64,000 bases of DNA from Chondrosia reniformis (Eukaryota; Porifera; Demospongiae; Chondrillida; Chondrillidae). Positions 14,001-57,362 of this stretch are shown here, piece by piece. The notes under the pieces are model-generated. The model searched no databases. It saw only the letters and a list, made by a program, of their open reading frames with translations, and was not told the origin of the DNA. The position numbers and the translations under genes were made by a program. The stretch is taken from the NCBI GenBank assembly GCA_947172415.1, contig OX359194.1:6888401-6952400 (forward strand). Direction: 5' to 3'. Each line of letters starts with the position of its first letter. Within the stretch, counting starts at the first letter, position 1.

Positions 14001-17000
14001 GTGAAAGGAAGAATGATTGGATGGTGAATGGGATATTTGTTACCAGTCCAGTTCTGCAGAGTATTCCATGACTTTAATTAGCACAGAAGAATGTTCCAGT
14101 ATAACATCCTGTAGGCGATGCATTATGGCAGTCTCATGATCTGCATGAGAAATGGACATTTGTGATTAATCTAACACACCGTTTTTCAACAGGCTTTAGA
14201 GTAAAGGTCTATAGGGAACTAAACCTAGTGAGAGATTTGGATGAGGATACAGAGGTTTCTCCTTCTTCTGCTCCACTGGGTTTCTGGGAATTCCACCCTT
14301 CATCAGTGACCCTGGGAATTTTTATCTTCTTCTTGATCTTTTGTGAGTCCTTGGCTCACTGTGCTAAATCTAGGGTCTTGTAAACACAAATTTAGTGCTA
14401 ATAAACTGTACAGATACGTACAATATACGTATATACACTAATAGTACACAAATATATGTACAGATAATGGTTACAAAAGAAGACACTAACAGTAAAGAAA
14501 CAGTAACTGTACGTATTCTTTACTATACAAAGCAAGGCAATACATTTATCTATTTCAGTCTACAATTTAAGGATCAAATTTTATGGCTAAAAATGGTAAA
14601 TGAGTACATAGGAAGGAATACGTAGGCTTAACAGTTAAAATGGTTGACATAAGCAATCAACAATTAAATACGTATGTACGCACATTGTACTATGTATTCA
14701 CTCCAACTTCCTTTAAACAAACACACAACCAAAGTCTTTTTTGTTATAAATGTTAACCTAAGGTTGTAGTGTTTCTTATTAGGCCAAGATCTACTAAAGT
14801 TGGCCAAGCACAATCTACGTAGACCTGCTGAAATGCAGCACACAGACCTCTGACTAGGATTGAAGGAGTGGAATTATATTAGGTGTAACTACAGTATGTA
14901 TGTGTGTGCATGCAAAGAAGACCTGTAATTGAGACCACTATGTAGTTGTCATGACAACAGGATGACCCTGACATATGGCTAAGCTGAGCAATGCATAAAG
15001 CATGAAGCACATGGCTTACTTCACAGTCTATTGGATTAGACCTGGGATTGTTAGGAACACTGGTGATGCTCATTCAATAAATAACTGATATATTGGATGG
15101 TTATACAATATTCCTCAAATTCCTTGCTGCACATTCGGGTCAAAACAACATCTAATAGATCACCTTTAGGGCATACAATTAGCAGCCAAGCAAATGTAAC
15201 TAGGGAAATTACTGAAATTTATAAGTAACAAGATCTTATGTTCTCATCTATGAAACAGGCAACCTACAAATTTGGAAGATGGTGTTTCATGGCTATAGAA
15301 AGCCACAGAAGTTTTTTTAAAATCAATTCTAACCAAAAAGGGTTCTGAAGCCTTGTGTCTCTGTTGCTGCATATCACATGGCAACAGGTCTCCTCTAGTA
15401 TGTAGTCACTTATGTCTGACTATATATAGGATACACTGCCATGAATAGCCATTCAATGAATTATCTACATCTATCTTTTGTAAGGATCATCTTTCGACTT
15501 TTGGAGCATGTCACTAAAGAAGACTCTTGGGGTCAAAACGTCTGACAACAAAGAAGAGACAAAACACTGCATCTTCAGAGACTCCAAAAGTTGAAAGATC
15601 ATCCTTTCAAAAGATAAGTTCAACGCAGTTAGAAGAAATCCTTATTCTATTATCTACATCTACATTACCACAAAAAAGATAAACCTAAAAAAGAACCTCT
15701 TTGTACAACTAACATCCGTAGATCCCTTTGGTGTAATTAGCAAATATAACAACTGTATATGCATACATACTTGCATAAGAAGTACAATGCTAATCAAAGG
15801 TATTTATATATATATATAAATTGCATACTGACATTTCTAGGGTTGGTATATCAATAGAAAAAGCGCATTTAATAATGTAAAGTGAGAACCCATTGAGTAG
15901 ATAAGACTGAATGGAACACACTAATTTCATATACCTATATATGTACATGACCCCCCTAAGAGCCTGCGAATTATTTAATTTTAGATTACTATAGTACTGT
16001 ATATTTATAAACTATAACTTGTATTGTATATGTGTTCAATATAGTAGTGAAATTTACAAACTTTGTAATCAGTTAAGATAACCAATGAAAATATGCTTTA
16101 ATCTGACCAAAACCACTTTGGCCTATCTCTTAGATCACATGAGCACTCATTGGACAAACACCAAACACAAAGTGGTCTCAATGACCACACAACCAGATCA
16201 CATATAAACAGATATATAGATATTATTATTACATCACCATGACAACAGAGCCTTTCCTTAAACTGTTTGCTGTCATGTTTTCATCACCATTACATTATTA
16301 TTACTACTACACATCATTACTGTATTAATTCTGATTTCATATTCTTATGCTATGTAGATAACCAAATTTGGCAAAGCATATGTCTTAGTTGCTTTGAATG
16401 CCTGTGTTTAGGAGGTGAGAATATGGATTCCTCTAATGACACTGTTCATCATTTACTCTAATGTCAGGTTGGATCAAGCTAGCTATATTTTCTGTCTCCA
16501 CAGGGTGTAACCCTATGATTAATTAGGGAATCTTGCTGATAGTAGTGTTTTTATACAACTACACACACAATGAAACATTCCAGGTACACAGCAGCCTAAA
16601 GCTATAGCATAAGAATTTGCCTACACCAACTTACTTGTTCAAATACAACCAGACGGCTAGGAAAGAAATAATACACCTTCATATCAATGTCAATATTTGT
16701 ATGTACCCATGTTACTATGGTTGGCCACACATATGCAAACTACACTCCTTACACTTTCAGTAGTTATTATAATGGACTAATACATAAAATTAGGGAGTAC
16801 CATATGACGACTACAATGTTGCATGGTTAAATATTGCTCCTATACAAGTGTTCCATATGTCAAAAACATTCATCAAAGTCTTAGTTGTACATGCAATTGA
16901 AGTAATAATGTCAATTAAGAATACATCACATACAGAAATCCCGATTTCATTATTTACAAACACTATGGAGAAGCCTTGGTGAAGGAATGAATAAGGAAGT

Positions 17001-20000: not shown

Positions 20001-23000
20001 CATCTATACACAATTGGTAGTTGAAAGTTCAGATGCACCAGTACAAAGAGTTATTGATTATACAAATACTTTGATGAGGTAAAAGTGATATACGTAGTTA
20101 TATAGAGTTCTTCCTATGCTGTATAGGTTACAAATTTTATTGTAAACAATTGAAACACTAGATCATACACGTACTTCCTCTGTGATGTTCAATAGAGACC
20201 TTTGGGTCCTAGCTATTTGAACCATAGTTGTCATGGTGATGAGACTTAAGAGACATAGCCTATAAGCTCTTCCTCTGTGATGTGGTTGTCACTTTATATG
20301 TATATGTTAGCCAGTTAAGCAGTGACTGTTTGTCTATGCAGTAATGTCAGGTCATAGCCAAAGTTCTTCTTATGTGATGTGGTTCTCTTTTTATAGATTA
20401 AGTGAAACATATGTTAGCCAGTTAAGCAGTGACTATTTGTCCTGGTGATGCAATTAAATCTACACTGTTATACTTTCCCTTTGAAGATCAACTATCACTC
20501 ACCAAAATCTCTAAAAGAGCAAACCATGCAAAGAAAACAAACAAATTAAAATAATCTTTCCTTAGAGTCAGCAGACATAGAAGGTTACCATGGTTACTAT
20601 CACCCTAAACAGGTAACATATGTTATGTTATCTATCTAGGAAGAGTTATCACTAAAGGTCAACCACAACTGATATATTTGATACTCAAAAGGTATTTGGG
20701 GAAATTGGTAAATTAGGTCATAGCTAAGCTAGCAATGTTGTTATTCACATAAGTACCTACATATTTGTACATATCATACATTGATCTACATAGGATGGCA
20801 TGAACGCCTTGAACGTGTATGTTGATATAACATCTTTACCAATAAACAATTGTATGTCACATATACATACATAATAATGCATAAAGGTACCATTCATACT
20901 ACTATAGACAATATAGTGTCCACTTTAAGTGTATAAACATGTATATACTTTATTTAATCCAGAGGTATTATTGAGCAACAGCAACATAAATTATTGATAA
21001 TAGGACATTTCAACCCGTAGGTCTTCATCAGCAAACATGATAAATGAGGAATGGTTGCTGTTGTTCAATAATACCTCTGAATTAAATCATGATCGCAACA
21101 AACAACCCTTATCACTACATGTATATACATATATATGGCCCAGTGGAGCAAAAGAAGAAAGAAAAGACTCCTTTATCTTTGTCCAAAGCTCTCTCCAGGT
21201 TGTACTTCCCAATAGGCTTTTTTACAGAGAAGGCATAGCATGTAGGAAAACAGTGTGATTTTCATATTTATACCTTTATGAACAAGGGGTTCCAATCAGG
21301 ACAATCTACTACTGAATACATATGTACTTATTAGAGGTGCTATCATGTAATATGGATATACATATTTATGTGTGTGTAGGAGACTGGTGTATCTTTACAT
21401 AAATATAATCTAACACATTATTTTCAAATATATACATACGTACGTATACGTACGTATATATATACGTATACCCATAGTTACGTAGCATGCATATTAGGCT
21501 AAGGAAAGTACAAATAGAATTAATAGACTTTTAATTTTCCTGGATTTGTCACTAAGGGAAATGTACTATTACCTTTTTATACTATATGAGTCAAATATGA
21601 AGTGCCAAAGTTTCAGTGGTCAAGCTAAACTCACTATTCTGTTAATCAACCCAGCAACCTGCTGCAATTCATCAGTAAAAGTGATTGCTATCTAGAGTAT
21701 ATATAAAATCAAATGAAGGATGATAGTCATATAAAGTTTTAAGATTGGCTTTAGGTCTTAAAGTCTCTCATTTTCAGTATATGTAGCATGTATCAATAAA
21801 ATTAGCATTTAATTACATGCATACGTACGTAGCAAATATACCTTTTTAAAGATCATTATTTTCTGTGGTAAAGTTCGGCAAACTTCACCAATGTAAATAG
21901 CATTATATGCTGTCTTATATAGTGCTTGCCAGTCATTCATAGAAGCCTGTGCACGATCCATTCGTACAAGGACGCTCTGCAATACATATACATAAATTTG
22001 GATGGCTAGGTGCTTCAAAACAGAAAACAGGTATATTCTTTCTATTGGAATTAAGTTTACTTCTTAGAAATAAATGCCCAGGGCTCTTACAGGTATATGC
22101 TTTATATTCTTTAAGCAGTCTCCCAAACTCTTTACAACTTCTTCATTTGAAGGATGCTTCAGAAAGCTGATAGCCTCCAGGCGCTCCTGAAGTGTATGAA
22201 TGTCTCTCATAGCCCTTAAGAACCATAGCCTGCAAGCAACAGTGATATCACTAAAGCTTAACATGTCTAGTAGGCTAGTGTTGCACAATTCCTGTCAGGA
22301 ATATATCAAAACAAAATTCAGAGCAAAGACTAGACACAATTTACATGCAGTGAATGAAGTGCATAAAAAGACTCCAGGAACTGTATCTTCATCCAAAGCT
22401 CTCTCCAGGTATCGGCTTGTTTACAGAGTAGGCATAGCATGTAGGAAAATGGCGTATTAGAGTTTTCTTGTACATATGTATACTAGTTTGTACATGCACA
22501 CATACATACACAAGAGATACTTCTCCCTGTAGCACTAAATAATCTCATTAATATATTTAGACCATGGTTATCACAGGGTTCAAGAATATGTGAATCTTTT
22601 CCAGTTCACATACATGTATATGCAAGCATATGTACGTAGTTATCTAGTTAGTCTATTACATATAATATGAGACCCTCTGTTGGCACGTTGCTATGGTTAA
22701 GTAAAGTTGTTATACTTGGGTCCTCACTCAGTTTAGTGATCTAATGTGCTACCGCCAATTATGGCAGTAGGTTGTTTATCCTTCCTAAAGTAAACACATA
22801 TTTAGCATATTTGTACACAATTGTGTAAACTGTCACCACAAAACTATATACACTTGCTTACCCAACACTACAAATTTAATCAGTATAAGAAGGCTTGTAT
22901 CTGAAGGACATACGTATGTACTTACCCAACACTACAAATTTAATCAGTATAAGAAGGCTTGTACCTGAAGGACATACGTATGTACTTACCCAACACTACA

Positions 23001-25824
23001 GATTTAATCAGTATAAGAAGGCTTGTATCTGAAGGACATATGTACAACTAGTCCGTCATGGACAATCCAAGCGACAACCAAGCTATAAGTGTTTACTCTG
23101 AAACTTGTTTACCTCAGTAGTTGGGAGCCAAGTTTCGACTTAGTTCTGTTGGCAATACCTACACACAAATATTATACACGTCCATAGATTTGGAGTATCA
23201 TGTAATGAGGATATACTGTGGAGGGCCTCACCAAAGAGGGAAAGTCCCTCCTTTCCTCCCTTTCCAGACTTGTAAACTGAAGGGTGTGATTCCTTTTGGA
23301 AGATTTGGAGTGCACTATACCAAGGAAAACAGAGAGGTCACATGACTGTCATGTGACAAGGGAGTGTAGAGAGAATTGTGAATAGTATTAACATCACTTT
23401 TTTTAGATAAATATGTAATGTTTGATATACATATTGATATGCATGCAGGATTCACAAAAGAGCAAGATCAAGAAAAGACAAAGATTCCCAGGGTCACTGA
23501 TGAAGGGTGGAATTCCCAGCAACAGCTGTCTGGCCGAGTGGAGTAGAAGAAGAAAGAAAAGAAAAGACTCCAGGACCTGCATCTTCATCCAAAGCTCTCT
23601 CCAGGTTTAATTCCCTATAGGCTTTTTTACAGAATAGGCATAGCATGTAGGAAAATGATTGGATTTTTCAAGATCTTCAGATCTTCGTCAGTGTCCCTGG
23701 CTCTCTCTGCCGTCTGGGTCCTTTGTTAGTACTGACCATTTAAATTTTATTTCAACAACATGATGACATGGCAAATAAACATAGCAAGTAAAAATCACTG
23801 ACTGTCTGTATAAGCAGCTTTATCAAATAAGCAGCCTTGATCAATAGGTTCAAACCATAATGAATTTATCAGTTTTAACAAATGTCTGCTTTCCCAGTGA
23901 TATTATACACCTTGTGTTCAGTAAGTTAATTATTACAGACAGCTGTCTGTGTTGGGGGAATTTTAATAAATTCTCATGAGAATGTTCTTATGTCATCAAA
24001 CCTATTGCAGACCACCAGTGAACAATGCATTACAAGCACCATACAATACCAGTGTCACACAAAAAAGTGAAAATATTTTCAGTTTAAATAATAACCCACA
24101 CACACACTAGTTGGAATATTGGAATATGTGCTTCTTAATCTCATGGTATATAACACTTTAAGTCTTACCAGTAACTGTTGTCATCAATAATAACTAAATT
24201 GTCCCTGTATATTGAATATAAACAACAGTTGACAATTAACTGGACATTTTCAGAATATTTACTGGCAGTATTTGGCACACGTACAGTGTCAGTGGTGATA
24301 CAGAGAAGATTGGTACACGAACTGATGTGTCCTCCAATTCTATTCCAACACGATGCTTGTCTAAGTATTTCAGCATGGCTCCAAGACTACGTACCTGGCT
24401 CAGAGGAGGGGGAGGGAGCAAAGGAGGATTTCGAATGGAAGTGGGAGTGGGAGAGGATTTAGAATGAAAGTAAGAGCAGGAAAGGATTTGGAATGGAAGT
24501 GTGAGTGGGAGAGGATTTGGAATGAAAGTGGGAACATAAGAGGATTTAGAATGAAATTACCATGGAAACACTCTGCAATGGTAAAAGTGATGATATGAAA
24601 ATGTGTCGCTGATCTTCACTGAATGTTGACTTCATTCCTGGTAATGTATTCAGAGCAAATATCCTTCTCTTGCAAGCTTCATACCCTATAGTCAACAGGA
24701 TGGACAGCTAAACAATCATTACATCATGTTTAGGTTGCAAGTTAGCAGGAGTGACTACAAATCTATTGAACTTCAACAGATCTTTTTGTCAGCACAATTG
24801 AAAAGCAAAACTAGTAGAGTTTGGAGTTCAACCGTGTAGATTTAACTAGAACAGATGAGGAAAATTGATTCTGTCCTAAAACACTCAACTTTCAGAAATT
24901 CGCTTAAAATAGCTCACACCAACGCCCACACTACACACCTACCAAACTATCAATGTGAATGTTTGCAGGTACATACTCCTTAGACAATGCATCACCTCTT
25001 CCCACTGTACAGTATTAAGAGATAAACGAGATAAGCCCTCCTTCGCATGTGTGTTTAGAACCTTTACTGAACCCTTTACTGAACACAGCTAGTAAAGCTG
25101 TACTGTATTCTCTGTGAGCAATGAGGACTATAAACATACCAAAATCAGAGCTTGGAATAATTTCCAATGTTGCATTATTTGAAGGCAGACTATGTTCTTC
25201 ACCTTGACTCTCTCTCTCCCCATTACCTTGAACTACAGTGGTTGTGCAATGATGTTAACTTATTCACCAATGACAATACGGCATTACATTACATGTGTAC
25301 TATGTGAAATGCTAAAGAAAAGATATTTTACTGTAAAGCTTGACAGTTCTTTGTAGTTTATCATCTTGCTTAGAACTAAGAATCACGGTGGTCGGACGAA
25401 TTTGCTCCAGGGCTAGGGGTGGAGTAGTACAAGCCAATGAGCGAGTCATACAGCTCGCATTAGGTAAATGCCCATACCTCGAAGGAAAAGTAGGTAGTCT
25501 TCTCGCTCCACAGTGTCCTTCATAAAGTGGAGGCTGGCCGACTCAATGTTATAATAGGACAAACCGAGCTTCCCTGCTTGGCAAAAGGCGCTTAGTATTA
25601 CCTGCGTAACATTACAAGCAGAAAGTACATGTATATCTGCTGCAGCTGGGAACAACACAAATATGAACCTGGGGCGCTTGTCCCTCTTCCTCCTCTTCTT
25701 CGATGAGTGCATTGGTCGAGTGTACATGGTTACCCGTTCTCTCGGATACATCGCACGCTTGCATGACATCGTTCTGCCCATGCACAGCTAGAGCGCTAGC
25801 ATTGGAGACAATTGAAGCAGCCAT
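8034..25824 (-). CDS. MSH5: MutS homolog 5 (meiotic crossover factor), complete
   Basis: MSH5 pairs with MSH4 as a sliding clamp that stabilises meiotic recombination intermediates in the nucleus. Twenty-six exons (minus order) splice to 835 residues, against 834 recalled for human: 25669-25824, 25478-25601, 25332-25412, 25140-25202, 24561-24685, 24285-24394, 24169-24204, 23232-23314, 23113-23158, 22091-22229, 21842-21976, 21636-21692, 18567-18639, 17708-17817, 17554-17634, 17250-17295, 17145-17186, 14044-14140, 13838-13927, 13051-13177, 11439-11588, 11292-11366, 11027-11170, 10436-10573, 9482-9555, 8034-8139. Phases agree at each joint. Walker A is GPNASGKS (about 595-602), Walker B LIILDE (about 670-675); also seen are [19 protein letters not shown] and the meiotic-family C-terminus [15 protein letters not shown]. 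The N-terminus carries an acidic run (EEEEEE) as in vertebrate MSH5. No mismatch-recognition F-x-E motif was seen, as expected. Introns hold most of the repeats between 8 and 25 kb. A few donors (exons 3, 6) were chosen by phase and are less certain. Confidence 0.97.
8140..9481. other. Last intron of MSH5, nothing notable
   Basis: AT-rich intronic sequence between the last two MSH5 exons. No exon of another gene, RNA gene or clear repeat was recognised on either strand. Confidence 0.6.
11600..11772. repeat. Purine-rich GA/GGA microsatellite in MSH5 intron
   Basis: A nearly pure purine run on the + strand built from gagagggagaggga-type units. It lies just upstream (in MSH5 sense) of the exon at 11439-11588. 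Such tracts can form triplex DNA; here it is noted only as low-complexity sequence. Confidence 0.9.
12141..12439. mobile_element. MITE-like element with 26-bp terminal inverted repeats
   Basis: The left end ttaccgtattatctctaata (12141-12166, 26 bp in all) and the right end (12414-12439) are perfect reverse complements. The 299-bp body has no coding capacity and holds several subterminal pieces of the end sequence (gcttatattggagac, gcttgtattagagac). A TTA/TAA at the borders may be a 3-bp target duplication. The middle part (12239-12330) is related to the minisatellite at 13195-13815. It sits in an MSH5 intron. Confidence 0.85.
13195..13825. repeat. Minisatellite in MSH5 intron, unit about 30-32 bp
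   Basis: Units of the form gagggagagagagatgtgtg followed by aggtggcg or agatggtg repeat about 20 times, with variant units in a patterned order. Long open frames on the minus strand are artefacts of the repeat. The right border (agcacccattgag, about 13810-13823) matches the inside of the MITE at 12141-12439 in opposite orientation. Confidence 0.92.
14181..14380 (-). mobile_element. Dispersed 'H' repeat with hammerhead core, cleavage loop deleted
   Basis: Minus-strand copy of a roughly 245-bp repeat found nine times in the window. It keeps GGGTCA, CTGATGA, AGGGTGGAATTCCCA and GAAAC in order (14278-14315) but has lost the short segment holding stem III and the cleavage site, so GAAAC joins directly to CCAGTGG. 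It begins within 50 bp of MSH5 exon 18. Confidence 0.8.
15483..15605 (+). mobile_element. Small inverted-repeat element with decayed hammerhead core
   Basis: Arms of 22 bp (15483-15504 and 15584-15605; aggatcatctttcgactttt and its near-perfect complement) flank a hammerhead-like core on the + strand at 15509-15547: TGTCA, CTAAAGA, GACTC..GGGGTC, AAAAC, GTC, TGACA. Stem I (TGTCA/TGACA) is intact, but CTGA is CTAA and GAAA is AAAA. Confidence 0.55.
17833..18534. repeat. 700-bp tetranucleotide-derived minisatellite in MSH5 intron
   Basis: Mixed tggatggatgggtg units with an interspersed tgtattggtgg variant that defines irregular higher-order blocks. Because the units keep all frames open, several 220-270 residue open frames exist on both strands; none is a gene. 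MSH5 exons flank it at 17708-17817 and 18567-18639, only about 15 and 30 bp from the array edges. Confidence 0.95.
19150..19183 (-). ncRNA. Hammerhead ribozyme-like core (Penelope type)
   Basis: Minus strand: TTG, CTGAAGA, A, GACC-TACG-GGTT, GAAAC, GTT, CAA. All invariant core positions (CUGANGA and GAAA) are present, stem II is four base pairs closed by a UACG tetraloop, stem III is reduced to the AC/GU step typical of Penelope-associated hammerheads, and a short stem I (TTG/CAA) can form. It lies in an MSH5 intron. Confidence 0.65.
19714..19764. repeat. 51-bp near-perfect palindrome
   Basis: The arm aatagagaatgaataataat is followed at once by its reverse complement, centred near 19739, with an (AAT)n/(ATT)n core. 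It could extrude as a cruciform or mark a snap-back of replication. It lies in an MSH5 intron. Confidence 0.9.
20165..20440. repeat. Imperfect tandem duplication, about 95-bp unit
   Basis: The strings gatgtggtt and gttagccagttaagcagtga recur about 95 bp apart (20278-20335 and 20374-20432), with a weaker third match near 20170. It is intronic in MSH5. Confidence 0.6.
20952..21087 (-). mobile_element. 136-bp inverted-repeat element enclosing a hammerhead core
   Basis: Arms of 34 bp (20952-20985 and 21054-21087) are reverse complements with two mismatches. Between them the minus strand has CTGATGA, A, GACC-TACG-GGTT, GAAA, TGTCC (21003-21032), an intact hammerhead core with a UACG tetraloop. 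The size and symmetry suggest a non-autonomous derivative of a Penelope-like element with opposed ends. Confidence 0.7.
21136..21258 (+). mobile_element. 'H' repeat fragment starting at the predicted cleavage site
   Basis: Matches the part of the H repeat downstream of the hammerhead, from tggcccagtggag to ggcatagcatgtagg. In full copies this segment starts directly after the GTC cleavage triplet; here it starts abruptly after unrelated (at)-rich DNA. Confidence 0.75.
22360..22452 (+). mobile_element. 'H' repeat fragment, 3' part only
   Basis: Matches the H-repeat segment aagactccaggaactg, cttcatccaaagctctc and ggcatagcatgtagg. The ribozyme part is absent. It lies between MSH5 exons. Confidence 0.7.
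22862..23044. repeat. 64-bp tandem repeat, about 2.9 copies
   Basis: Three near-identical copies of a unit containing acccaacactacaaattt and aaggcttgtatctgaagg. Only a few point differences separate them, so the triplication is recent. It lies in an MSH5 intron. Confidence 0.93.
23441..23665 (+). mobile_element. Full-length 'H' repeat with hammerhead core
   Basis: Full copy running from aggattcacaaaagagcaag to ggcatagcatgtaggaaaat. The ribozyme section (23491-23536) reads GGGTCA, CTGATGA, AGGGTGGAATTCCCA, GCAAC, AGCT, GTC, TGGCC. Stem I GGGTCA/TGGCCC-type pairing is intact with a wobble, but the GAAA box is GCAA in this copy, so it is probably inactive. Confidence 0.8.
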
Positions 25825-26085
25825 TTTCTGCTTGGAGACTGGGCATGGAAATCTGATCCCTGAACTAGTTAGGTGCATTAAGCATGTGCGGTACGTGTGG
25901 TACATAAACATTCCAACTCACAGGCTCTCTCCATTTACTAGCTGGAGCAGTTGTCAAAACATTGGTTTGTTTGCGTATATACAGTGTAATGACCTTTGTG
26001 TGACACTAGCGGGCTTACGTCAACAGATAAATTGTATTTAAGAGCTCACCGCGGGCCGGAAACTTGCAGTAGGAACATCTTAAGA
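25825..26085. promoter_or_regulatory. Divergent promoter region, MSH5 and FN3/vWD gene
   Basis: Only 261 bp separate the MSH5 start codon (minus) from the start codon of the FN3/vWD gene (plus). The stretch is higher in GC than its surroundings. Both 5' untranslated regions and any core promoters must fit here. No TATA box was assigned. Confidence 0.6.
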
Positions 26086-32640: not shown

Positions 32641-32649
32641 TTAACTGTA

Positions 32650-35185: not shown

Positions 35186-38100
35186 ATGTTCCCTTTGATG
35201 CTGTTTTATTGTATAGGTATAGTTGTAAAATGTGAGTTGTTCTTAATCTGCTCAGTGACATCTACGTATGCCTTGTTAAATTTTGTGAAGGCCTTTTTTA
35301 ATTGACTGTCTCTCTTAAGTACTAAACACACAATAACTGGTGGATGGTGTAAAAGAAATAGATCTAGAGACTGTCATACTACTCATACATTGTGATTCTA
35401 GTATAATTATTAATGCTGGGTGTGTGAATATATGTACATATAATAATGACATTGACTCAAATGCTGTACTTTCTCTACCTTTAAGCAGTTGTTCTAACAG
35501 ATTTTTAAAAGGATATTTTCCATTTTCTTATCTGTACAGCTCAAAGTGATGTAACAACATGCAGCAATATTCCAATTGCAGGTGATCAATGTAAATACCC
35601 ATGTATATACATTTAATATATAAACACTCTAAATTCTGTTTATGAAAAATCTAATTACACTATTTTCCTAAATGCTATGCCTATACTCTGTAAAAAAGAA
35701 CTAAACCTGCAGAGAGCTTTGGATGAAGATACAGGAATCTTTTCTTTCTTTCTTCTTTTGCCCCACTGGGCCAAACAGCTGTTTCTGGGAATTCCGCCCT
35801 TCATCGGTGACCCTGCTTTGTCTTTTTCTTGATCTTAATTTTTTGTGAATCCTTGCTAAATCTAGCTAAGGGTCTAATATACAAATTGTAGGCTCTACAA
35901 ATAGCATATAGACATGCTTGCTACACTATTTCTATTCATATTATACTAAATAGACTTCAATTTTAATCAAGGTATATATGCATAAGTACATACGTATACT
36001 ATATAATATAGTATACGTATAAGTATAATATAGTTATGGAGCAATATTATATATATATACTGTACATTACATACATACCTGCTGAAATTTCACAAGTTAT
36101 TATATGTTTACATACATATAGGTGGCTACATGCATAAACATACACACATTCATGAAAAATCTAAGATACCATTTTCCTAAATGCTACATATATGCCTATT
36201 CTGTAAAAGAGCCTATAGGGGAACTAAACCTAAAGAGAGCTTTGGATGAAGATACAGGAGTCTCTTCTTCCTTCTTTTCCCTTTTTTCATCTTCTTCTCC
36301 ACTGGGTCAGACAGCCGTTTCTGGGAATTCCACCCTTCATCAGTGATCCTGGGAGTCTCTGTCTTTTTCTTTATCTTTGTCTTCTGTGAATCCTTGGCAT
36401 GTATACTATTTAAAATAAGGTTTTCTCAATATTAAACAAATTTGATATTTGACACTGTTTTGTGTATACATGCTATAATATGGTTTCTAATCAATCTATC
36501 AGTTGTTAATCTATAAGTGCATTTCTAAGTATGCACTCAAGCCACATTGATGGATAGTGAAAATATTACTTAGGTAACATAGATAAGAGGCGTGGAAGAG
36601 GAGGGGCACAAGCTGGGTCTATCTCAGTCCAAGACTGGTTTTATTTATCTAAGCAACTAATGTAAGCTACGGATCGAAAAGCCTTGTTATTACTGACTGA
36701 ATGAAACTCTGCTATAACCTGCTCCAACATACGTATATACTGTATATTGTTTTCCATACACACACACACACACACACACATACGTAAGTATAATTTTTTT
36801 TATTGATATCTGTTGTGCTAGAAGTGCCAGTGAAACTGAGACTGGTGGGTGGGTCACATTCTGCTGAGGGAAGAGTAGAAGTATTTTATGAAGGAGAATG
36901 GGGTACCATTTGTGATGACAATTGGAATATAAAGAATGCTGAGGTTATTTGCAGAATGCTTGGCTATCCAGTAGCCTTATCTAGTAAGGGAAATGCAGCC
37001 TATGGTGAAGGAAGTGGAACCATTCTCTTAGATGATGTCCAATGTGATGGAGATGAAGCAAACATAGCCGATTGCAGTCATAATAGGTGGAGAGTTAACA
37101 ATTGTGACCATGGAGAAGATGCTGGTGTTGAGTGTTCAAGTTGGTTTTATATATATACAGTAAAACATGCACGTATGTTATATACATCATTATTATATTA
37201 CGTATTTTTGATATCTACATTATTGGTTCAGGTACACCACTTAGTGCTATAGTAAGGCTAACTGGTGGGGATACTGCAGCTGAAGGGCGAGTAGAAGTGC
37301 TGTTAAGCTCCAATGAAGCTTGGGGCACCATTTGTGATGATGACTTTGACTACGCTGATGCACAAGTCATATGCAGAATGCTAGGATATGCTGGAACACT
37401 TAGGGTACAAAGCTTTGGGGCAGGAAGTGGTCCTATCTGGTTTGATGATGTGGCCTGTGAAGGAAATGAGTCTTCCATTTTAGAGTGTGGTCATGCTGGA
37501 CTTGGTGATTCCAACTGTGGCCATTCTGAAGATATTGGTGTTGTATGTATAGGTACGTAAGGATGTAGAAAGTTACAAAATATTTCCCTATAGTTACTGA
37601 GTCTATAGGACCAACCATTACCTATATTATGTAGGTGATGCAATCACTAGTGTACCAGTTAGGCTTGTTGGTGGCTCCTCTTCCACTGAAGGAAGAGTAG
37701 AGTTATCCATCAATGGAGAATGGGGTACAATATGTAATGATGGATGGGATTTTGCGGATGCTAAAGTGGTTTGCAGAATGCTAGGTTACCCAGGTGTCAT
37801 TGGTACAGCTGAAATTGATACATTTGGACAAGGAAGTGGAACTATATGGCTGGCTAACGTTGACTGCTCAGGATATGAGTCATCTTTATCAGAATGCACC
37901 CACAAGGGATGGGGAGCTCAGCGTGGATGTGATCACTCTCAAGATGTTGGTGTCATCTGTTCTGGTAAGAGAATATTAACTGACTGACAGTGTAGTGCTG
38001 TTAGAGTATCAAATTCCACTTATATTTGTAGCATCAATTCCAAATGTTCCAGTACGATTAGTAGATGGAGTTGACTCTTTAAGTGGTAGAGTTGAAGTGT

Positions 38101-41100
38101 ATTATAACAGTCAATGGGGAACAATTTGTGATGATGAATGGAGTTTTTCTAATTCAAAAGTTGTTTGTAGCATGTTAGGACATGGTGGTGTCATAAGAAG
38201 CTACACTCACGGAGGAGGTAGTGATCCAATCTGGTTGAATAGCGTAAACTGTAGAGGAAAAGAGACAAGTGTAGCAGATTGTTTGCATGATGGTTGGGGA
38301 GTACATGATTGTTCTCATTCTGAAGATATTGGAGTAGTCTGTTCAGGTATGCAAGCATCTTACATGTACATGTACATAGTGTTTAAATGTCCTTGTATAT
38401 ATATATGCCATTATGAAGAGCTATACTTGCAGTTGCATTAATAATAATACCTATTTTTTTATTCCTTTTCTAGAAACACTAATAGAATTTGGTGTTAGAT
38501 TGGTGGGTGGGTCTACTGCCTCTGAGGGTAGAGTGGAGGTACACTATAATGGAAAATGGGGAACAGTCTGTGATGATAATTGGGATGTTAAAGATGGCAG
38601 AGTCATCTGTAGGATGTTAGGTTATCCAGATGTGGTATCAATTAGTGACCAAGCTGCCTTTGGAGAAGGAAATGGATCCATTATTTTGGATGACGTTGCT
38701 TGTAATGGCTATGAAGAAACCATAGCAGAATGCCCTCATAGTGGACTGGAAATCAATGATTGTGGCCATTCTGAAGATGCTGGTGTAGTGTGTGCAGGTA
38801 AAAAATTACATTGTATCTTTCTACTTGTACTACTGTGTATACAACTACATACATATATATGTACGTACTTTTTCATGACTGAATGTCTATGTATACATAC
38901 ATAGGAATCACAAAACCTCAATGTGTGACTGTAATGGAAGGATCTTCTAACAGTGTTTACTTGAATGTGTCTTGGTGTGGAACCTGCGGTGTAACTTACA
39001 GAGTAAGGTATTCCACATCCAGTGGAACCATTCCTGAGCCCCCTTCAGGAGCTGTGAGTGTCTCAGTCATGAGTGGTAACTCTACTCTCTTAACCGGACT
39101 GAGCCTTGACACCACTTACTATGTGTGGGTGGCAGCAGTATCATCTGATACTCAAGGACCTTACAGCAATAGACTATCAACTACAACAAGAAGATCAAAT
39201 GAGTGTACATGATATAGTACTCTATGTATAATATATGTTTTATACAGTTTATATATAATTTTAGCAGTAGTATATATGTACGTATATTAAAATACTGATC
39301 AGTAGGTTCAATTTCTTGATACCAGCTCTCCAATATATCTGTATTTATAATATATATACTGTAGGGTTGTGTGCAGTATATATACATACATATATACATT
39401 GAGAGACTTTAATTTTTAACCTATGTACGTACATACGTAGGTTACATTTTTTATATATACATGTACATATGTATATATATAATTGAAATGATTCTCAATT
39501 TAGTTCCATCACAAGTGAGTTATGTTCAGATGACTCAGACAGTATCTGGTAGAATGATCAATTTTAGGGTTACATGGAATCAGCCAAGCAGTGATCGTCC
39601 CATACAATACTATGAAGTACGGTACAGGAAACAAGGAGTATCCAATTGGACCTCAGTAACACCAAACCCAACCACCAGACAGACAACTATAAGGAATGTG
39701 GATAAAGGTAGTGTTTATAATGTTCAAGTGAGAGCTGTGTCTGATGTTGGATCTGGACAGTGGAAAAGTGCTACTAGTCAGAGGACATATAGAGGTAAAC
39801 AAGACAGTTACATTTTCTAATTTTTGATGTATGTATGTATGTATATGTGTAAAGCAAACATCAATTCCTACATTAAAAATAATACAACATACATTTGTAA
39901 TTGAAATTATTCTACATGTGCTATTAAAATGTAGTTCCATCACAAGTTAGTAATATTCAGATGACTCGGACAGTGTCTGGTAGAATGATCAATTTAAGGG
40001 TTACATGGAATCGGCCAAACAGTGATTGTCCCATACAATACTATGAAGTACAGTACAGGAAACAGGGTGTATCCAGTTGGACCTCAGTAACACCAAACCC
40101 AACCACCAGACAGACAACTATAAGGAATGTGGATATAGGTAGTGTTTATAATGTTCAAGTAAGGGCTGTGTCTGATGTTGGTTCTGGACAGTGGAGAAGT
40201 GCTACTAGTCAGAGGATATATAGAGGTAAGCAAGACAGTTACTTTTGATTTTTGATGTATGTACATGTGTAAAGTAAACGTCAATTCCTGCATTAAAAAT
40301 TATACAACACACGTACATTTGTAATTGAAATGATTCTACATGTGCTAATTTAAAATGTACTGTAGTTCCATCACAAGTGAGTAATATTCAAATGACTCGG
40401 ACAGTGTCTGGCAATTTTAGGGTTACATGGAATCAGCCAAACAGTGATCGTCCCATACAATACTATGAAGTACGGTACAGGAAAGAGGGTTTATCCAGTT
40501 GGACCTCAGTAACACCAAACCCAACCACCAGACAGACTACTATAGGGAATGTGGATAAAGGCAGTGTTTATAATGTTCAAGTAAGGGCTGTGTCTGATGT
40601 TGGATCTGGACAGTGGGGAAGTGTTACTAGTCAGAGGACATATAGAGGTAAGCAAGACAGTTACTTTAATTTTTGACGTGTGTGTATGTGTTAAACAATT
40701 GTTACTTCCTGCAATAAAAATTATACAACATACATTTGTAATTGAAATGATTCTCTATGCGCTAAAATGTAGTTCCATCACAAGTTAGTAATATTCAGAT
40801 GACTCAGACAGTGTCTGGTAGAGTGATCAATTTAAGGGTTACATGGAATCAGCCAAACAGTGATCGTCCCATACAATACTATGAAGTACAGTACAGGAAA
40901 CAGGGTGTATCCAGTTGGGCCTCGGTAACACCAAACCCAACCACCAGACAGACAACTATAAGGAATGTGGATATAGGTAGTGTTTATAATGTTCAAGTAA
41001 GGGCTGTGTCTGATGTTGGTTCTGGACAGTGGAGAAGTGCTACTAGTCAGAGGACATATAGAGGTAAGCAAGACAGTTACTTTTAATTTTTGATGTGTGT

Positions 41101-41721
41101 GTATGTGTTAAACAATTGTCACTGCCTACATTAAAAATTATACAACATACACTTGTAATTGAAATGATTCTCTATGCGCTAAAATGTAGTTCCATCACAA
41201 GTTAGTAATATTCAGATGACTCAGACAGTGTCTGGTAGAGTGATCAATTTAAGGGTTACATGGAATCAGCCAAACAGTGATCGTCCCATACAATACTATG
41301 AAGTACAGTACAGGAAACAGGGTGTATCCAGTTGGACCTCGGTGACACCTAACCCATGGCCAACAACCAGACAGACAACTATAAGGAATGTGGATATAGG
41401 TAGTGTTTATAATGTTCAAGTAAGGGCTGTGTCTGATGCTGGTTCTGGACAGTGGAGAAGTGCTACTAGTCAGAGGACATTTAGAGGTAAGCAAGACAGT
41501 TACGTACATTTTATTCTTTAATTTTTGACGTGTGTACATGTACATGTGTAAAGCAAACAATAATACAACATACATTTGTTATTGAAATGATTCTACATGT
41601 GCTAGTTCCGTCACAAGTTAGTAATATTCAGATGACTCACACAGTGTCTGGTAGAATGATCCATTTAAATTTTAAGGGTTACATGGAATCGGCCAAGCAG
41701 TATGATTTTTACTTTGATTAA
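35186..41721 (+). CDS. Secreted five-SRCR, six-FN3 protein with decayed terminal FN3 exon
   Basis: Extracellular scavenger-receptor-type protein, 1187 residues as assembled. Exons: 35186-35231, 35540-35581, 36822-37139, 37232-37552, 37635-37964, 38032-38346, 38474-38797, 38905-39204, 39504-39794, 39935-40225, 40366-40647, 40773-41063, 41190-41486, 41606-41721; all joints phase 1, sum divisible by three. Exon 1 is a short hydrophobic leader ([15 protein letters not shown]); this start is the least certain part. Exons 3-7 are group-A-like SRCR domains, each with EGRVEV or similar, [15 protein letters not shown] and a final GVxC. Exon 8 is an FN3. Exons 9-13 are five near-identical FN3 domains opening [11 protein letters not shown]. 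Exon 14 is a sixth copy broken by a 7-nt insertion that shifts the frame and ends the protein after about 38 residues. No membrane segment was found downstream, so it is either secreted or the true 3' end was lost. SRCR domains bind polyanions or microbes in known proteins; the ligand here is unknown. Confidence 0.86.
35645..35885 (-). mobile_element. Full-length 'H' repeat with hammerhead core
   Basis: Minus-strand copy in intron 2 of the SRCR/FN3 gene. The ribozyme part (35765-35815) reads GGGTCA, CCGATGA, AGGGCGGAATTCCCA, GAAAC, AGCT, GTT, TGGCCC. Stem I pairs fully with one wobble; the CTGATGA box carries one substitution. Confidence 0.8.
36155..36400 (-). mobile_element. Full-length 'H' repeat with intact hammerhead core
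   Basis: Minus-strand copy in the same intron, about 510 bp from the previous copy. The ribozyme part (36304-36350) reads GGATCA, CTGATGA, AGGGTGGAATTCCCA, GAAAC, GGCT, GTC, TGACCC: all core boxes intact, stem I with one mismatch. One of the two best-preserved copies in the window. Confidence 0.85.
36762..36784. repeat. CA dinucleotide microsatellite
   Basis: A run of about ten CA units lies shortly upstream of the first SRCR exon (starts 36822). Confidence 0.9.
39504..41721 (+). repeat. Tandem array of exon-plus-intron units encoding FN3 domains
   Basis: Unit starts at 39504, 39935, 40366, 40773, 41190 and 41606, spacing 431, 431, 407, 417 and 416 bp. Exons and introns are both conserved: each intron opens gtaagcaagacagtta and ends with gaaatgattctacatg-type sequence. 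Conservation of introns shows that whole genomic segments were duplicated recently, not just the protein domain selected. Confidence 0.97.
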
Positions 41722-42468: not shown

Positions 42469-45400
42469 ATGTCCGTCTTCGTGTGCTGGATTGCAGTAGC
42501 GATTGTTTTCTCCAGTGTGGCAGGTATGGAGGTCCGCGTATAGTATCAGCTTACAGAAGGGTGACTTACAAAGAGTCAGTAGTATTATAATATTATAACA
42601 AGTTGTAATAGGGAATCATTCTCTATGTTCATGCAAATTCGATTCCCAGTTTACCGTCCCCGCCCGCATGCTTGTTTGGGCATGCCGTCGAACTTTCATT
42701 TTTCATTAGAGCGCATAAATAGGCGCCAATGACTTTTGGTTATAACTTGCTTCTGTGCTCCTTTATTACATTTTCAAATTTAATACTGTGTGTTCTACTT
42801 TAATATGTACAACTTACAATTGTTTCTTTATTATTGGTAATTCAGTGAGTTTTGTATGTCCGATGACTGATTGCATAATGAAATATATTCAACTCAATGA
42901 GTTTTGTGTGTGATTACTGATTGCATTTGTACTTGTAATAATGAATAATGAAAAATGACCTCCCTCCCTCATGCTATTTTCAAAACTGCTGGACGATAAA
43001 CTGTGAATCGAATTTGCCTGGCCTAATATGTCAAAATCGATATATAGTGTAGCTGATCTATTTGTAGAGCTATTCCTCAACTGTTTCTTGTGCGTTAGAT
43101 CGTCTGATGGAACCCATCGCTTTTGTTCCTTCAAATTCCTTAATAAATGGAGCACATCAAATTTAGTCAACCATGTCCCATGAACAATAAAACAACCTAA
43201 CCGTTAACTGTGTACAGAGGGAGGATATTTAGGATTTAAATTGGCGATGGCGCGTATTCTCTTGTATCTATCACAATTATGATTCCTTTACTATGAACCT
43301 ACAAAGTATATATATATATACAAACAGCCAATGAGAATCATTATATTGCATTTGGCTGTTATACCCTTATACGACCTGCTTCATGCCTAACTACAGAGGT
43401 GTATTCATTCTGACAAATTGTTTGTATGAGTTTTATGTAGATAGATAAACTCACCCATTCAGTGAACTTCAGAAGGTTCTTTATATGAACCGCCCTCTTC
43501 TGACTAATATCAAAACTTTAGCTTCTCATTAGGTGACCGGTAAATACTAGTTGAGCATTTTACCACAGCAGAGTGAAACTTGAACAATTATTGGAACATT
43601 TCAGTCCGTAGACCTTCCTCAGCCAAGGATGGATAAAGAAGAAGAAGGCTGACCACAACAATGCAATCGCAGTCCATGCATGGGACACAGGACAGAGCAT
43701 CAACTGGGAAGGAGCCTCCATCCTCAACAGGGAGACCCACCAATGGAGGAGAAGAGTAATAGAGGCAATATACATTCAGAGATCTTCTCCAAGAACTGTT
43801 AACCTGGATGGTGGTCTGATCCTAAGTGACCTGTGGAAGCCCTTTATCTGATTACATGTATTTTAACAGTATTCCATCATATGACATCATATTACATCAT
43901 TTATGTTTTTTAGTATTGTCTCTCAACTGTAATTTTAAATTTTTATTCTCATCATCATTGGCCAAGGAAGGTCTACAGACTGAAGTGTTCCAATAATTGT
44001 TCAAGTTTCGCTCTGCTGCAGTAAAACACTCAACTAGTGTTTACCAGTCATATTATTAGAACGTAGCAATGAACCTTTAATTTACTCCATTATTCTCATT
44101 AGGTGTATACCATTATGCATCCTTGCTTGTATGCAGCCCTTATTGAAAACTAATTTGTTGTTTCTCTGTAGCCCTCATCTAAAGCTCTATAGGTTTTGCC
44201 CTTAGTTCTATGACTCTTATGTGTTTAGTCTCTTATAGTTTGTTTTCTCAATCTCTTATGCTTAATTACCATGTGGGTAAATGGTTAATTACATAGATTA
44301 TTCATACTTAAATATATGTCTATGTGACTTGTATGTCTATATTTATTATATATTAATACACCCATTCTGTTTCTAGGTCCTTTCTTGGAGCCATATAAAT
44401 TATTTAATTATATTATATTATATTATTTATTTAGATTACCTTAGTATAATTGTAACTTGCACTGTATATATATACTGCCATACTAAATTCTATTTGTATA
44501 TTAGAGGTATGATATGAGGTTTGAATACACCATTGTATATTCCTATTTCAAGGTTATTGTATTGCCATTATTGTTTTGATTTTCAGTACCTATACAGTGT
44601 ATATTGTTTATTTTGTGTATTGCTAGCTGTTTGATTATTATAGTATATATAAATTACCCATTATGTACATTTCATCACAACTGCTAGTGTATTTGACATG
44701 AAATATCTAATGCATCATTTTTCTTACATGCTACATCTAATTTAGAGTAAAAGGCCTATATAGGGAATTAAAACCTAGCGAGAGCTTTGAATGAGGATAC
44801 AAGTTTTTTTTTCTGGGCCGGACAGACAGACATGTCTACTACATATTCATGTTTACCAATTACACAAATTAAATATATAATTGTTATTTAAAATAACATA
44901 TTCAAATTATGCGTTTTGGTCCAAAAGGCAAGAAAACGGGGTAATGTTGTACAATATATATGAGGTGTAATTCTTATAGTTTGTTGTTGCAAGACTTAGG
45001 AAGTGTTAATAGGGAAAAGTTTGACATGTTTATCTCTAACTAAATTTTAAGCAGAGGTGTATTCAAGCTGTTGTAGTTAGGTAAGCTCATCCATTCAGTG
45101 AAGAGGAAACAGCTGTCAAAACAACCTGGCAAATTTTGTATCCAAAAGGAAGCGTATTGAAAAGAATCAAGCACTAAATTCTTTCATGTTTCCCTATAGT
45201 TAATTTAACTGTTTATACATTAGTCGTGCAATAAAGAGGACATCGATCTTGTCTCAGATGTCCCTATGAATAATCCACTTTATATTAACTGCCCTCTTTT
45301 GACTAATGTGAAAATATAGTCTAAACTTTAGCTTCTTGCAGTATTACAGTACATCCTTGCTTGTATGCAGCCTTCATGTTTATTGAAAACTAATTTGTTG

Positions 45401-49368: not shown

Positions 49369-52300
49369 TCAAATCTTCTCCTGATCACTCAAAGCTAATG
49401 TTTTAAGCCAATAGGTAGCAACTTCTCCATTTCCAAATTCACTTACAGCTTGCACATGGACAGTATAGGCAGTCTGGTTCTCCAGACCCTTCACAGTGAC
49501 ACTGGTGTCTGACAATTTTGAATCCTCATGAACAGTTTCTCCACTTTTAGAGTTAGCTACTGATACAATGTAGTGCTTTATATGTCCAAATTGGTTTGTT
49601 GGAGGTGTCCATTCCAGAGTAAAAGAAGTGGCATCAACATTAGCAGTCTTGATGTTATTTGGCATGTCTGGTATGCAATGTCTGCCTGCACAATTGTATA
49701 GTATGTGAGGTGAGCTGGGACAATGAATACTTTACATTCACTCAAGTTAGGAATACATACGTACAAAGTGGGTCATAATGTTTGGGTCATTGAAAGTCAT
49801 ACAGTACTGCCCAACAAAATCTTCAATATTTGATGTATTAATGAAAATTAAGATCTAGAGTCTGTTTGCCGTTGCTATGAAAAAGGAGCCATGATTGAGG
49901 TGTATTGTATGAAATTGTATACTGTACGTAGCTCAGTGCTCACTGATTTTAAATATTATGTTTTGGGGTACTTTCAATACTTTCCCATTTTCTCCCTTGA
50001 TAAAATTTCATGAGAATCGTGAGTATAATTACTTATATCTGGTTGTGTTGTATGTACAAACCTTTTGGATAATTACCAATTTGATGTCGTTCTGGTAGGA
50101 AGAAAATTGTAAAGTCCTTCTTCCACTCAATTGACACAAAGATGGGTCCTCTGGAAGCTGGTACATCTGGTACACTTGTCCAACCAACATCAACATTCTC
50201 CGATGCTAAAACAGTTCTTTTTAACAGCACATTGACTTTGCTGGCTATTACTCCATATTTACCACTCCCACCGTAAATCCACTTCGCCATCAACTTACCA
50301 GCTGGAGTGACACACATGCTTATATTTCTCACTGAGTACAGAATAAATATTTACAGTATGTATTATTATGTACATATTTATACATATATCCATGTACCTA
50401 TAATATATATAATGCATAATCATATTCCTTTGCTAAGTTGGCTCTTCAATCTATATATGCATATGACACACTTCCATCCAGGCTGAAACTAGTACATACA
50501 TGGATTAACAGAAGATCAAGATAAAGAAAAAGACAAAGACTCCCAGGATCACTGATGAAGGGTGGAATTCCCAGAAACGGCTGTCTGACCCAGTGGAGAA
50601 GAAGATGAAAGAAGGGAAAAGAAGGAAGAAAAGACTCCTGTATCTTCATCTAAAGCTCTCTTTAGGTTTAGTTCCCCTATAGGCTCTTTTTACAGAATAG
50701 GCATATAGCATGTAGAAAAATGGTATCTTAGATTTTTCATGCCTAGTAGATATACGTACATACGTACATTTATTATATGTAGCTATACATTGGTTATAGG
50801 TATAAATATCACACGCAGTAGGTTTAAATTAGGGGTGGATCTACGTAGGAATTTGACCTCGGTATGTGTGAAATACTTTATACATATTTGTACCTGGTGG
50901 TTTGTTTATAAAATGGTAGATCTTGGTGTAGGGTCCTCTTCCTGATTCATTCTCAATGGCTAGCCTAATTTCATATTCTCCCAGCTCTTTTGTGAAAACC
51001 TTTCTAACAGTTTTGGCATAAGAGTACCCAGGCTCGTAAATCTCCTCCCACTTCTCCTGATTCCTCAACCGATACTGAATAATGTACTGAATCTGGTTAC
51101 CGAATACATTCAAGGCTGGTTTCCAGGCAACCAAAACTGATTTAAAGTGAGGCTGAATGTGTCGTATTTCAGGGCTAGACTTAGGAACTAGATATACAGA
51201 AAAACTTTACTTTTTATACATAATAAATTGGGTCAATGTATATATTATATTGAATACACACACATATGTATGTATATACAATGGTATGTACACATATGCA
51301 CCTTCTGGATATGTACGGACAAATTGATCAGATCTCTGAATATCCTTTTTCAAAGCCCTTCCCTTGGCATTCACAGGATAAACTCTAACACAGTATCTTG
51401 TAAATGGTTCCAGTTTATTGAACTGAACTGAATACATCATCCCTTCAACACTTTCAAGGACCTCATCTAAGCATGCACCTCCCTCGCTTGCTTGATGCAG
51501 TTCAGCTACATAGCCTGACAATCCCATTATATGATTTACATGCATCCTCAATGGTTCTTTCCAGGTAAATTGAACATCCGTAGTTGACTTCGATTTCAGA
51601 TGGAAGAACCTTATGGGCCCAGATGGAACTATACACAAATGGAACTTAAATGCACAACATATACAGATGGAACTATATACAGAAATGATAGTGAAGTAGA
51701 TATAAAACTGAAATATTTCCATTCTCACTTTCTGGTGCCGTTTGAAAGTTGCCCATGGCAACTACTCCATTCTGTCCACCCTCAGTGACATACACTAACT
51801 TCACAGTGTAACTGTTGCCTGGATACAGACCTACTGCATTTACTGCATGACTAGAAATGTCCATGTCCATTTTAGTAATTGGAACATCAAATCGAGTGGG
51901 CAGGAATACCAGCTGATATTTACGGTTTTCAAGTTCATTGTTACCATGACTGCTAGGGTACTGTATCTGTGGTAACCGTATCACAACTCCTCTAGTTCCT
52001 TTCCCATAAGGATATATGTTATTCAATGGTTGTACTAAACATTAAGATATAGAGTATATTATGTAACATATGCATATATTGTTATTATAAATGTAACAAA
52101 AAGGTGTTTCAGCATAACGTTTTCCAGGGATTAATTGCAATGCGTTAAAATATTTTAAAGGCAAAAGTTATTTCACACTAAAGGACACACCTAGCTACAC
52201 CTAAATAACTGTCTAGTGAAAATATGCTTCCATCTACTTTTGTTCAACCCAGCATAAACCAATTACCCATCTCACAGGTGACTGGATCAGGCAGGCATCC

Positions 52301-54049: not shown

Positions 54050-54436
54050 TCCGCAATTTGTATACCTAGTACGGCGATGCTATTGGCTACTGCTCTCTAA
54101 CGCACGCGAACTACAATCCTGCGGTATGGACAGACACTGATACTTCGGAGTATATAGCGTCGAGCTAGGTATTCAAATAATGTCCGAGCGAGCTCCTATT
54201 TATGCTCCTACGAAGTGCGCAGGTGTACGTACGTCTACTATATCGATTGCATACCATCTTCATGCAGGGTTGCCACGTGCGCATAATGAATTGAAAGCTC
54301 TATAGGTATGGCGTTCGAATAGGATACAGCTTATATAAATTAATTAAAATAATTAAGACCTTGTATACATATTCTACAATAGTTATGTACAAAAGTTAGT
54401 GTACAAAATTAAAATATTGTTGAGTGGCATTACTCA
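54050..54436. other. Intergenic DNA between two minus-strand genes
   Basis: About 390 bp, the left part less AT-rich, which should contain the promoter of the FN3 gene starting at 54049 and the 3' end of the phosphatase gene. No discrete site was assigned. Confidence 0.5.
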
Positions 54437-56392: not shown

Positions 56393-57362
56393 TTTTATTC
56401 CAGTATACTAGATACGGTACATCGGTTCTGTAGCTTGTATATATAGGAAATTTAATAATGGCCTATTGTTTGCCTTTAATATGTATAGTGTATCGATTTA
56501 ATAACACAAGAAGCCTTCGTTTCACTTTTTCTTTTCAAAATGCTTCAATATGGCGACCTTCGGGTTGAGACTTGGAGGAAGACCCAAATGTGTGAAAAGG
56601 AATTTTATAGACTTGACCTTATTTGCATAAAGTACGTAACTGCATCCAATACATATATAGACAGTACCATATAGTCGTCTTGTGGGCCAACTAAATTGCA
56701 TTCAAAACATACAAACCAAGAGTAATACAGTAGTGGGCATAATTACGTACTTCAGCAGCTGTTCTGATGAGAGAACAGCTGCTGTATACAAAAGGTTCAC
56801 TTTCAAGTGTGCTTGATAAACAGGTACCTATAGAGCAAGCACATATATGGATGGACCAAGGAAGAGTTTGGGGGGGGGGGGGTGGGGCAAAACCTGTTCC
56901 CAAAGTTTTAAACTTCACTACAGTGTATATGAAAACAAATATTGCACAAATAATCTAAAACACCATTTTCTTACATGCTACATCCATTCTACAGTAAAGA
57001 CCTATATAGGGAACTTAAGCTGGTGAGAGCTTTGGATGGGGGGATGCAGGAGGTCTTCTCTATATTCTTTGCTCCACTGGGCCAGACAGCTGTTTCTGTT
57101 TGTAAGCTCCACTAGCTGTACATGTATGAAATAAACCAATGACAAGATATCCTAGGATATGTAATGACCATATGTAGTGTCTTGTGAAATGTGAAACAGT
57201 CATTTCTGTTTTCCTAATATGAATCATCAACTCATGTTTTGAAACAGAAATATTTGTAATGGTACTACATTCCTGTTCTGTGCCAAGCATTGGTTGCCTT
57301 TAGTACTACTACTATGGAATAAGTTTTAATTTTTATCACTTTAGTAGCACACTTGGAAGAAG
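56393..57362. other. Divergent intergenic region with G tract and 'H' repeat fragment
   Basis: Lies between the phosphatase start (minus) and the membrane FN3 gene start (plus). Contains a run of G (56870-56887, one T) and a minus-strand H-repeat fragment at about 56958-57100 that stops inside the hammerhead (cagacagctgtttctg). No gene was recognised. Confidence 0.6.
56958..57100 (-). mobile_element. 'H' repeat fragment ending inside the hammerhead
   Basis: Matches the 3' part of the H repeat on the minus strand (cattttcttacatgctacat, gagagctttggatgg, ccactgggccagacagc) and breaks off just after the GAAAC box complement, so stem II and the CTGATGA box are missing. Confidence 0.7.

Follow-up and report, generated by a model that had tools for sequence, protein, structure and literature searches.

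Introduction

Hammerhead ribozymes were reportedly found by Cervera and De la Pena in 2014 in the flanking repeats of Penelope-like elements (PLEs), and in R2 retrotransposons a self-cutting ribozyme like that of hepatitis delta virus sets the 5′ end of inserted copies. Here, we examined a 64,000-nucleotide stretch of the genome of the sponge Chondrosia reniformis (contig OX359194.1, positions 6,888,401 to 6,952,400; hereafter the window), in which an earlier note, made from the letters alone, had recognized a dispersed repeat of about 245 bp carrying a type I hammerhead. The repeats are quite probably leader insertions of a young Penelope-like retrotransposon, in which the hammerhead cut gives rise to a second class of 5′ ends. 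Such an element would resemble R2 in that a self-cutting RNA sets the 5′ ends of copies, and would differ from it in ribozyme fold and element class.

Hammerheads in PLE repeats are known and usually minimal, and the sponge family resembles them in its minimal type I motif on both sides of the reverse transcriptase (RT) open reading frame (ORF), its short stem III and its tandem element (PMC6155905). What sets it apart from them is the A.A opposition at the stem II base, its sponge host, and the presence of numerous short copies of the leader together with copies whose first base follows the cut. The Poseidon element PAc of Anolis carolinensis likewise has a tandem layout with a hammerhead-bearing terminal repeat (pLTR) near the ORF start (PMC11167929). 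Its reverse transcription starts inside the RNA and its hammerhead is inactive alone, features that the sponge element may share (PMC11167929). Cleavage in PAc depends on the protein and is dispensable for insertion in vitro, and none of the reads stopped at the cut, whereas genomic copies of the sponge element begin at the cut, and its target is often CATG, as against the AT-rich DNA used by PAc (PMC11167929). Animal non-LTR (long terminal repeat) retrozymes are, like the sponge unit, short and very abundant units with a type I hammerhead; they are tandem and spread as circles, whereas the sponge copies are dispersed and derived from a PLE leader (PMC7229834). A limited literature search gave no earlier report of copies starting at a hammerhead cut. 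As far as that search goes, the new findings are the sponge family, an A.A hammerhead variant that Rfam misses, the great number of leader-only copies, frequently at CATG, and, most notably, the cut-starting copies. Such copies provide a test that requires only an assembly and is usable in every animal with elements of this kind, and the family shows that standard models can miss a hammerhead whose stem II is mismatched at its base.

The Repeat Family and Its Two Preferred 5′ Ends

The window was placed on chromosome 6 of the C. reniformis assembly odChoReni1.1 (117,379,552 bases in 15 contigs; PMC12181767), which was used for the genome searches. With the copy at 36155 as the query, blastn assigned all nine places listed by the earlier note to one family in both orientations, as the note had held. 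The genome search that it had called for revealed a real and abundant family, with at least 41 matches when 40 of 2,278 candidates were scored and 1,276 exact matches to the 3′ end. An alignment of 37 close copies, a few rows of which are the same place entered twice, bounded the unit sharply at about 245 bp (GCCAAGGATTC...GATTTTT). Of 39 rows, 19 have the same four bases before and after the unit (CATG in 18 and CATA in one); three pairs of the 39 rows are the same place twice, several rows are long copies with the element and not a target upstream, and the CATG on the 3′ side could be partly element, because CATG also follows GATTTTT within the element.

Ribozyme cleavage ahead of reverse transcription would have to leave some copies whose first base is the one following GTC. 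The 5′ ends were examined in an unselected sample of 23 copies, consisting of those with a 3′ end in the window or in the flanks of the fetched loci. Locus-defining copies and duplicates were excluded (L088:2749, which equals L089; the PLE copies L091–L093; L090:1314-1350, which abuts a locus-defining copy), and the window copy at 21136, missed by the automated 3′-end criterion, was added by hand. The commonest single 5′ end was the presumed RNA start, as for uncut RNA: seven copies start within about six bases of GCCAAGG, and two run past it. The second commonest was the ribozyme cut, at which four copies start exactly (L025:896, window 21136, L016:1874 and L081:2206) and one (L069) probably, and the other nine start at scattered places. 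Four of the 14 truncated copies thus start at the cut, with a fifth probable. L025:896 is 98% identical to the young unit, and the start of the 21136 copy at the predicted cleavage site is a point absent from the earlier note.

The same preference was seen genome-wide with break patterns in which all three bases before the break must differ from the unit. A break at the predicted cut gave 163 matches, and the reversed pattern four. Breaks one base downstream gave 31 (reversed, 0), those one base upstream 33 (reversed, 3), which takes in cut-site copies with a flank ending in C, and those three bases downstream, with a slightly stricter pattern, 9 (reversed, 0). Six cut-site junctions, the first six of 14 drawn at random, were all real, with 35-base flanks unrelated to the 5′ half of the unit. 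They are preceded by ACT, ACG, ACA, CAT, TCA and CAT; such variety argues that the TG of the unit was not simply borrowed from a CATG target, a borrowing that is possible for flanks ending in CA. The excess at the cut, seen in old and young copies, suggests a fossil sign that leader RNA is cleaved in the animal where the hammerhead lies, and we infer that the ribozyme itself, not a nuclease, makes this cut.

Some sequences at the cut site took other forms. In L095 and L098, a 5′ piece of the unit abuts the first base downstream of the ribozyme cut, which could reflect template switching at a cut end or plain deletions picked by the pattern. Two clusters on C2 are local amplifications of cut-site pieces: ACATGGCCCAGTGGAG at 15 places over 1.1 Mb (C2:2460107-3557117), and AATTGGCCCAGTGGAG, with one AGTT and one TTGACC variant, at eight places 25–147 bp apart (C2:756967-757401).

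The Hammerhead Motif

The string CTGATGA-N15-GAAAC-N4-GTC occurs in the window only at 36310-36343 (−) and 50552-50585 (+), where stem I, CUGAUGA, stem II, GAAA, stem III, UH and again stem I follow one another with the core letters. These are the two copies in which the earlier note had seen every core box (its 36155 and 50488). It had credited five copies with all the boxes, but the other three have lost some of them (GCAAC at 23441, CCGATGA and GTT at 35645, neither stem III nor GTC at 14181). The stem I that it gave, GGGTCA/TGACCC, is found in no window copy: the intact pair is GGATCA/TGACCC, and the older pairs are GGGTCA/TGGCCC or GGGTCA/TGGCCG. Its type I layout with a two-base-pair stem III gains support from the covariance model described below. 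This first reading was right in kind and wrong in some letters.

In the motif at 50546..50591, stem I contains an A.C mismatch and leads into CTGATGA, and stem II, A(GGG)TGGAATT(CCC)A, has A.A at its base and leads into GAAAC-GGCT-GTC. From the old to the young lineage, stem I changed from GGGTCA/TGGCCC, which includes a G.U pair, to GGATCA/TGACCC, by which G.U became U-A and the neighbouring pair became A.C, and loop III reads AGCT in the old lineage and GGCT in the young one. Both lineages have A.A at 10.1/11.1 followed by GGG/CCC in stem II. Full pairing of stems I and II was thus found in neither lineage, given this A.A in both and the A.C of the young stem I. Hammerheads normally have the first pair of stem II at this position, and pair 10.1-11.1 is important. 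We count the motif as a hammerhead variant because the axolotl HHR_Amex2 is reported with a U.U mismatch at the base of helix II (PMC7229834). The core pattern CTGATGAN{10,17}GAAACNNNNGTC gave 2,241 genome matches, other hammerhead families included, versus one for the reversed pattern.

Outside the window, the Rfam model RF00163 had at least 51 genome matches over its cut-off, and the stems of the genome's canonical hammerheads covary (9 distinct rows). A covariance model, R1, was built from 18 of these canonical sequences (9 distinct) with the present family excluded, and was run with filters off on the window and three loci (75,136 bases). The top match was the old copy L077 (27.5 bits, E 1.6e-5), a locus that had been picked by the core pattern. 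Next came the two intact window copies together with two PLE copies, each at 20.6 bits (E 0.0018), and then the decayed window copies at 35768 and 23493 (Table 1); family copies ranked first among the window matches. By this model, the motif is a hammerhead relative, though a weak one.

The motif also differs little between the lineages. When the young unit was compared with 19 old copies not picked by the motif, one difference fell in the 34-nt motif and 50 in the remaining 197 positions of the unit, with indels included (Fisher P 0.0016); with 13 more copies that had been picked by the motif, the figures were 1 of 34 and 50 of 199 (P 0.0027). This is suggestive, not proof, of a motif conserved over the rest of the unit. 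No convincing covariation, which the earlier note had looked to as a check, was seen within the family: between old and young copies, one stem I change aids pairing and one breaks it.

A Probable Penelope-like Carrier

Six copies extend upstream of the unit with common sequence and are 5′-truncated at differing distances. Two long copies (L091 and L092), read further up over about 7 kb in all, contain an RT ORF that ends in RPKGRLT and a stop about 200 bp above the unit. In L093 (C1), the one tandem junction read, the ORF end is followed in turn by a spacer containing GGCGCC and TATATAAGG, by the unit, and by the 5′ untranslated region (UTR) and ORF start of the next copy. An RT at C1:4320585-4321736 is flanked by hammerhead matches at C1:4318500 and C1:4322001; this pair of matches and the L093 junction represent tandem copies with hammerhead-bearing terminal repeats. 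Such a tandem pLTR-ORF-pLTR arrangement is the layout of PLEs (PMC11167929, PMC6155905). To judge from the layout, the 245-bp unit is the leader or terminal repeat (pLTR) of an autonomous young PLE. The earlier note had left the choice between a Penelope-like and a retrozyme-like family; the former is supported by the RT ORF directly upstream in the long copies read, and a stand-alone retrozyme is not, the unit being a pLTR leader.

The RT has at least 107 genome matches (105 of 1,128 candidates scored), of which the first 37 rows are 98–100% identical, and at least eight have 997-aa open frames with no stop. This identity and the copy number bear out the dense mobile family of the earlier note and mark it as young. 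The RT protein P0001 matched RVT_1 with an E-value of 2.9e-6 at 27.6 bits, below the curated cut-off of 29.6, and the motifs FDFSTLY, GIPMGTDCAP and YIDD were read by eye. A PDB search with the RT gave no meaningful match, and a single-sequence structure prediction was too poor to use (predicted local distance difference test, pLDDT, 31). No GIY-YIG domain was matched in P0001 and P0002, which leave out most of the N-terminal part of the ORF. Some PLEs are without a GIY-YIG endonuclease.

Counted from the first T of TATATAA, a putative promoter, GCCAAGG starts 30 bases downstream, and this spacing is consistent with a transcript start at GCCAAGG. Short and long copies have their 3′ end in common. 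Taken together, the two observations allow the short copies to be read as complementary DNA (cDNA) that spans the RNA from its start to an internal point at which reverse transcription began, and such initiation inside the RNA has been observed in vitro for the anole element (PMC11167929).

Proposed Mechanism and Alternatives

In the proposed scheme, the full element has the head-to-tail arrangement that was seen, with ORF end, spacer with the TATATAAGG box, 245-bp unit, and 5′ UTR with the next ORF start. Its RNA would start about 30 nt past the TATA box, at GCCAAGG, and the unit RNA would carry the minimal type I hammerhead about 55 nt from this start. Reverse transcription would begin within the leader at the CATG that directly follows GATTTTT in the RNA, and targets, often CATG themselves, may prime it there, as the copy ends suggest. 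From uncut RNA, the cDNA would run back to the RNA start and yield 245-bp copies; where the hammerhead had cut first, it would halt at the new 5′ end and yield copies beginning with TGACCC or TGGCCC. The longer, variably truncated copies with the ORF would stem from read-through out of a tandem copy upstream. We regard as evenly balanced between right and wrong the more specific proposal that a hammerhead with a non-canonical stem II, invisible to Rfam, cuts the leader in living sponges, either ahead of retrotransposition or in its course, and is recorded as 5′ ends, so that the ratio of end classes would read out its activity, and that a CATG overhang primes in the leader and leaves many abortive "strong-stop" copies.

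A number of observations weigh against this interpretation. The Rfam scans that the earlier note had proposed detected no hammerhead in the window, even at E ≤ 10, or in short stretches; R1 aligns stem I, the core and stem III and skips stem II, at whose base A.A stands, and the young stem I has its A.C mismatch. The minimum-energy fold of the young motif lacks the hammerhead form, and shuffled sequences fold at least as well (z 1.0; the old motif gave 0.19 and a canonical hammerhead −3.2). With substitutions only, the conservation was not significant (1 of 34 in the motif versus 22 of 169 elsewhere, P 0.14). Truncated copies in the unselected sample number 14, versus seven at the RNA start and two running past it. 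Among the 100 cut-site matches listed (of 163), 26 lie in three local clusters, which leaves 74, and eight hand-picked matches comprised four insertions in unrelated sequence, one one-base deletion, two internal deletions and one duplication. Some breaks are uncertain by two bases because the TG of the element overlaps the CATG target, and the CATG 3′ of copies is perhaps element and not duplicated target. The assignment to PLEs draws on layout and RT motifs, with RVT_1 below its cut-off and no PDB relative.

An inherited hammerhead that is now inactive, with the TGACCC starts produced by a host nuclease or by insertion at CATG targets, whose TG is common to the unit, would account for the weak stems and fold. 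The usual target is indeed CATG, and ACA is the commonest flank before TG (29 of the 74 listed matches outside clusters). Yet the breaks at the two other TG dinucleotides of the unit gave 18 (reversed, 2) and 33 matches (reversed, 0) against the 163 at the cut, where ACT, ACG, CAT, AAA and AGA flanks occur as well, and cut starts are found in both TGACCC (young) and TGGCCC (old) copies. Such a relic is in our view unlikely. Stalling of RT at the folded RNA was also rejected as the source of these ends, since the cDNA would then be expected to end short of the 3′ strand of stem I instead of beyond it.

Very improbable is the spread of the 245-bp unit as its own self-cut, circularized RNA. Its size and copy number are like those of animal retrozymes, whose RNAs measure about 170–400 nt (PMC7229834), and the genome has a 355-bp tandem family with canonical hammerheads, but no two units were directly head to tail among the copies aligned for upstream extension. 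Moreover, copies of the family favour certain 5′ ends and share a single 3′ end, whereas circles would give no preferred cut-site end. The canonical 355-bp family gave no pattern match starting at its own cut site, which is expected if it spread by circles, though this is a weak comparison because that family is smaller. That coding or other sequence reads like a hammerhead by chance is hardly credible. A frame is open on the ribozyme strand of the unit, but the element's ORF begins beyond the unit, for which reason the coding reading was dropped; the GAAAC-AGCT-GTC segment of the old lineage is common to the canonical hammerheads of the genome, R1 matches the motif, and copies start at the predicted cut.

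Family Copies in the Window and Other Repeats

The family copies and hammerhead motifs of the window are collected in Table 1, in which "then" marks the break at which a copy starts or ends.

Table 1. Leader copies and hammerhead motifs in the window (E, E-value with model R1).
Feature	Position	Strand	Remarks
Near-full leader copy	50499..50741	+	Youngest in window, 98.8% to family majority sequence; first few bases altered; ends in GATTTTT, then CATG
Minimal type I hammerhead	50546..50591	+	Predicted cut after 50585; R1 20.6 bits, E 0.0018
Full leader copy	36151..36398	−	CATG at both flanks
Minimal type I hammerhead	36304..36349	−	Letters as at 50546; predicted cut between 36310 and 36309; R1 20.6 bits, E 0.0018
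Copy starting exactly at predicted ribozyme cut	21136..21265	+	Flank ...tatata, then TGGCCCAGTGGAGC; 3′ end kept (...GATTTTCAT)
Older full copy	23445..23670	+	Broken ribozyme (GCAAC for GAAAC); stem I GGGTCA/TGGCCG; R1 17.2 bits, E 0.019
Older copy	35642..35855	−	Broken ribozyme (CCGATGA; GTT); stem I GGGTCA/TGGCCC; R1 19.9 bits, E 0.003; sequence just above start point similar to element's spacer
Older copy	14163..14355	−	Stem III, GTC and part of stem I 3′ strand deleted; extends beyond start point into element's spacer (CCCTAGATTTAGCACAGTGA, then GCCAAGG)
5′-truncated copy without ribozyme	22362..22470	+	
Old 5′-truncated copy	44697..44813	−	Start near cut site, ambiguous (GTC, then CGGCCCAG)
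Old 5′-truncated copy	56949..57098	−	Start at (CA)GAAACAGCTGTC, then TGGCCC

Two further kinds of hammerhead were seen in the genome. The 355-bp family (L031–L060, for example L052 at C6:4722860-4725904) has canonical stems GCCATA/TATGGC and GTCC/GGAC in partly head-to-tail units of about 355 bp and looks like a non-LTR retrozyme, and a third type has GCCC/GGGC stems. The window itself contains tandem arrays with units of about 155–170 bp at 32605-34300 and of about 416–431 bp at 39494-41670. Repeats at 36839-38629, spaced every 390–440 bp or so (or double), resemble scavenger-receptor cysteine-rich (SRCR) exons by eye. An 8-bp minisatellite runs for several hundred bases from 17744 onward, and many other short-period arrays are present in the window.

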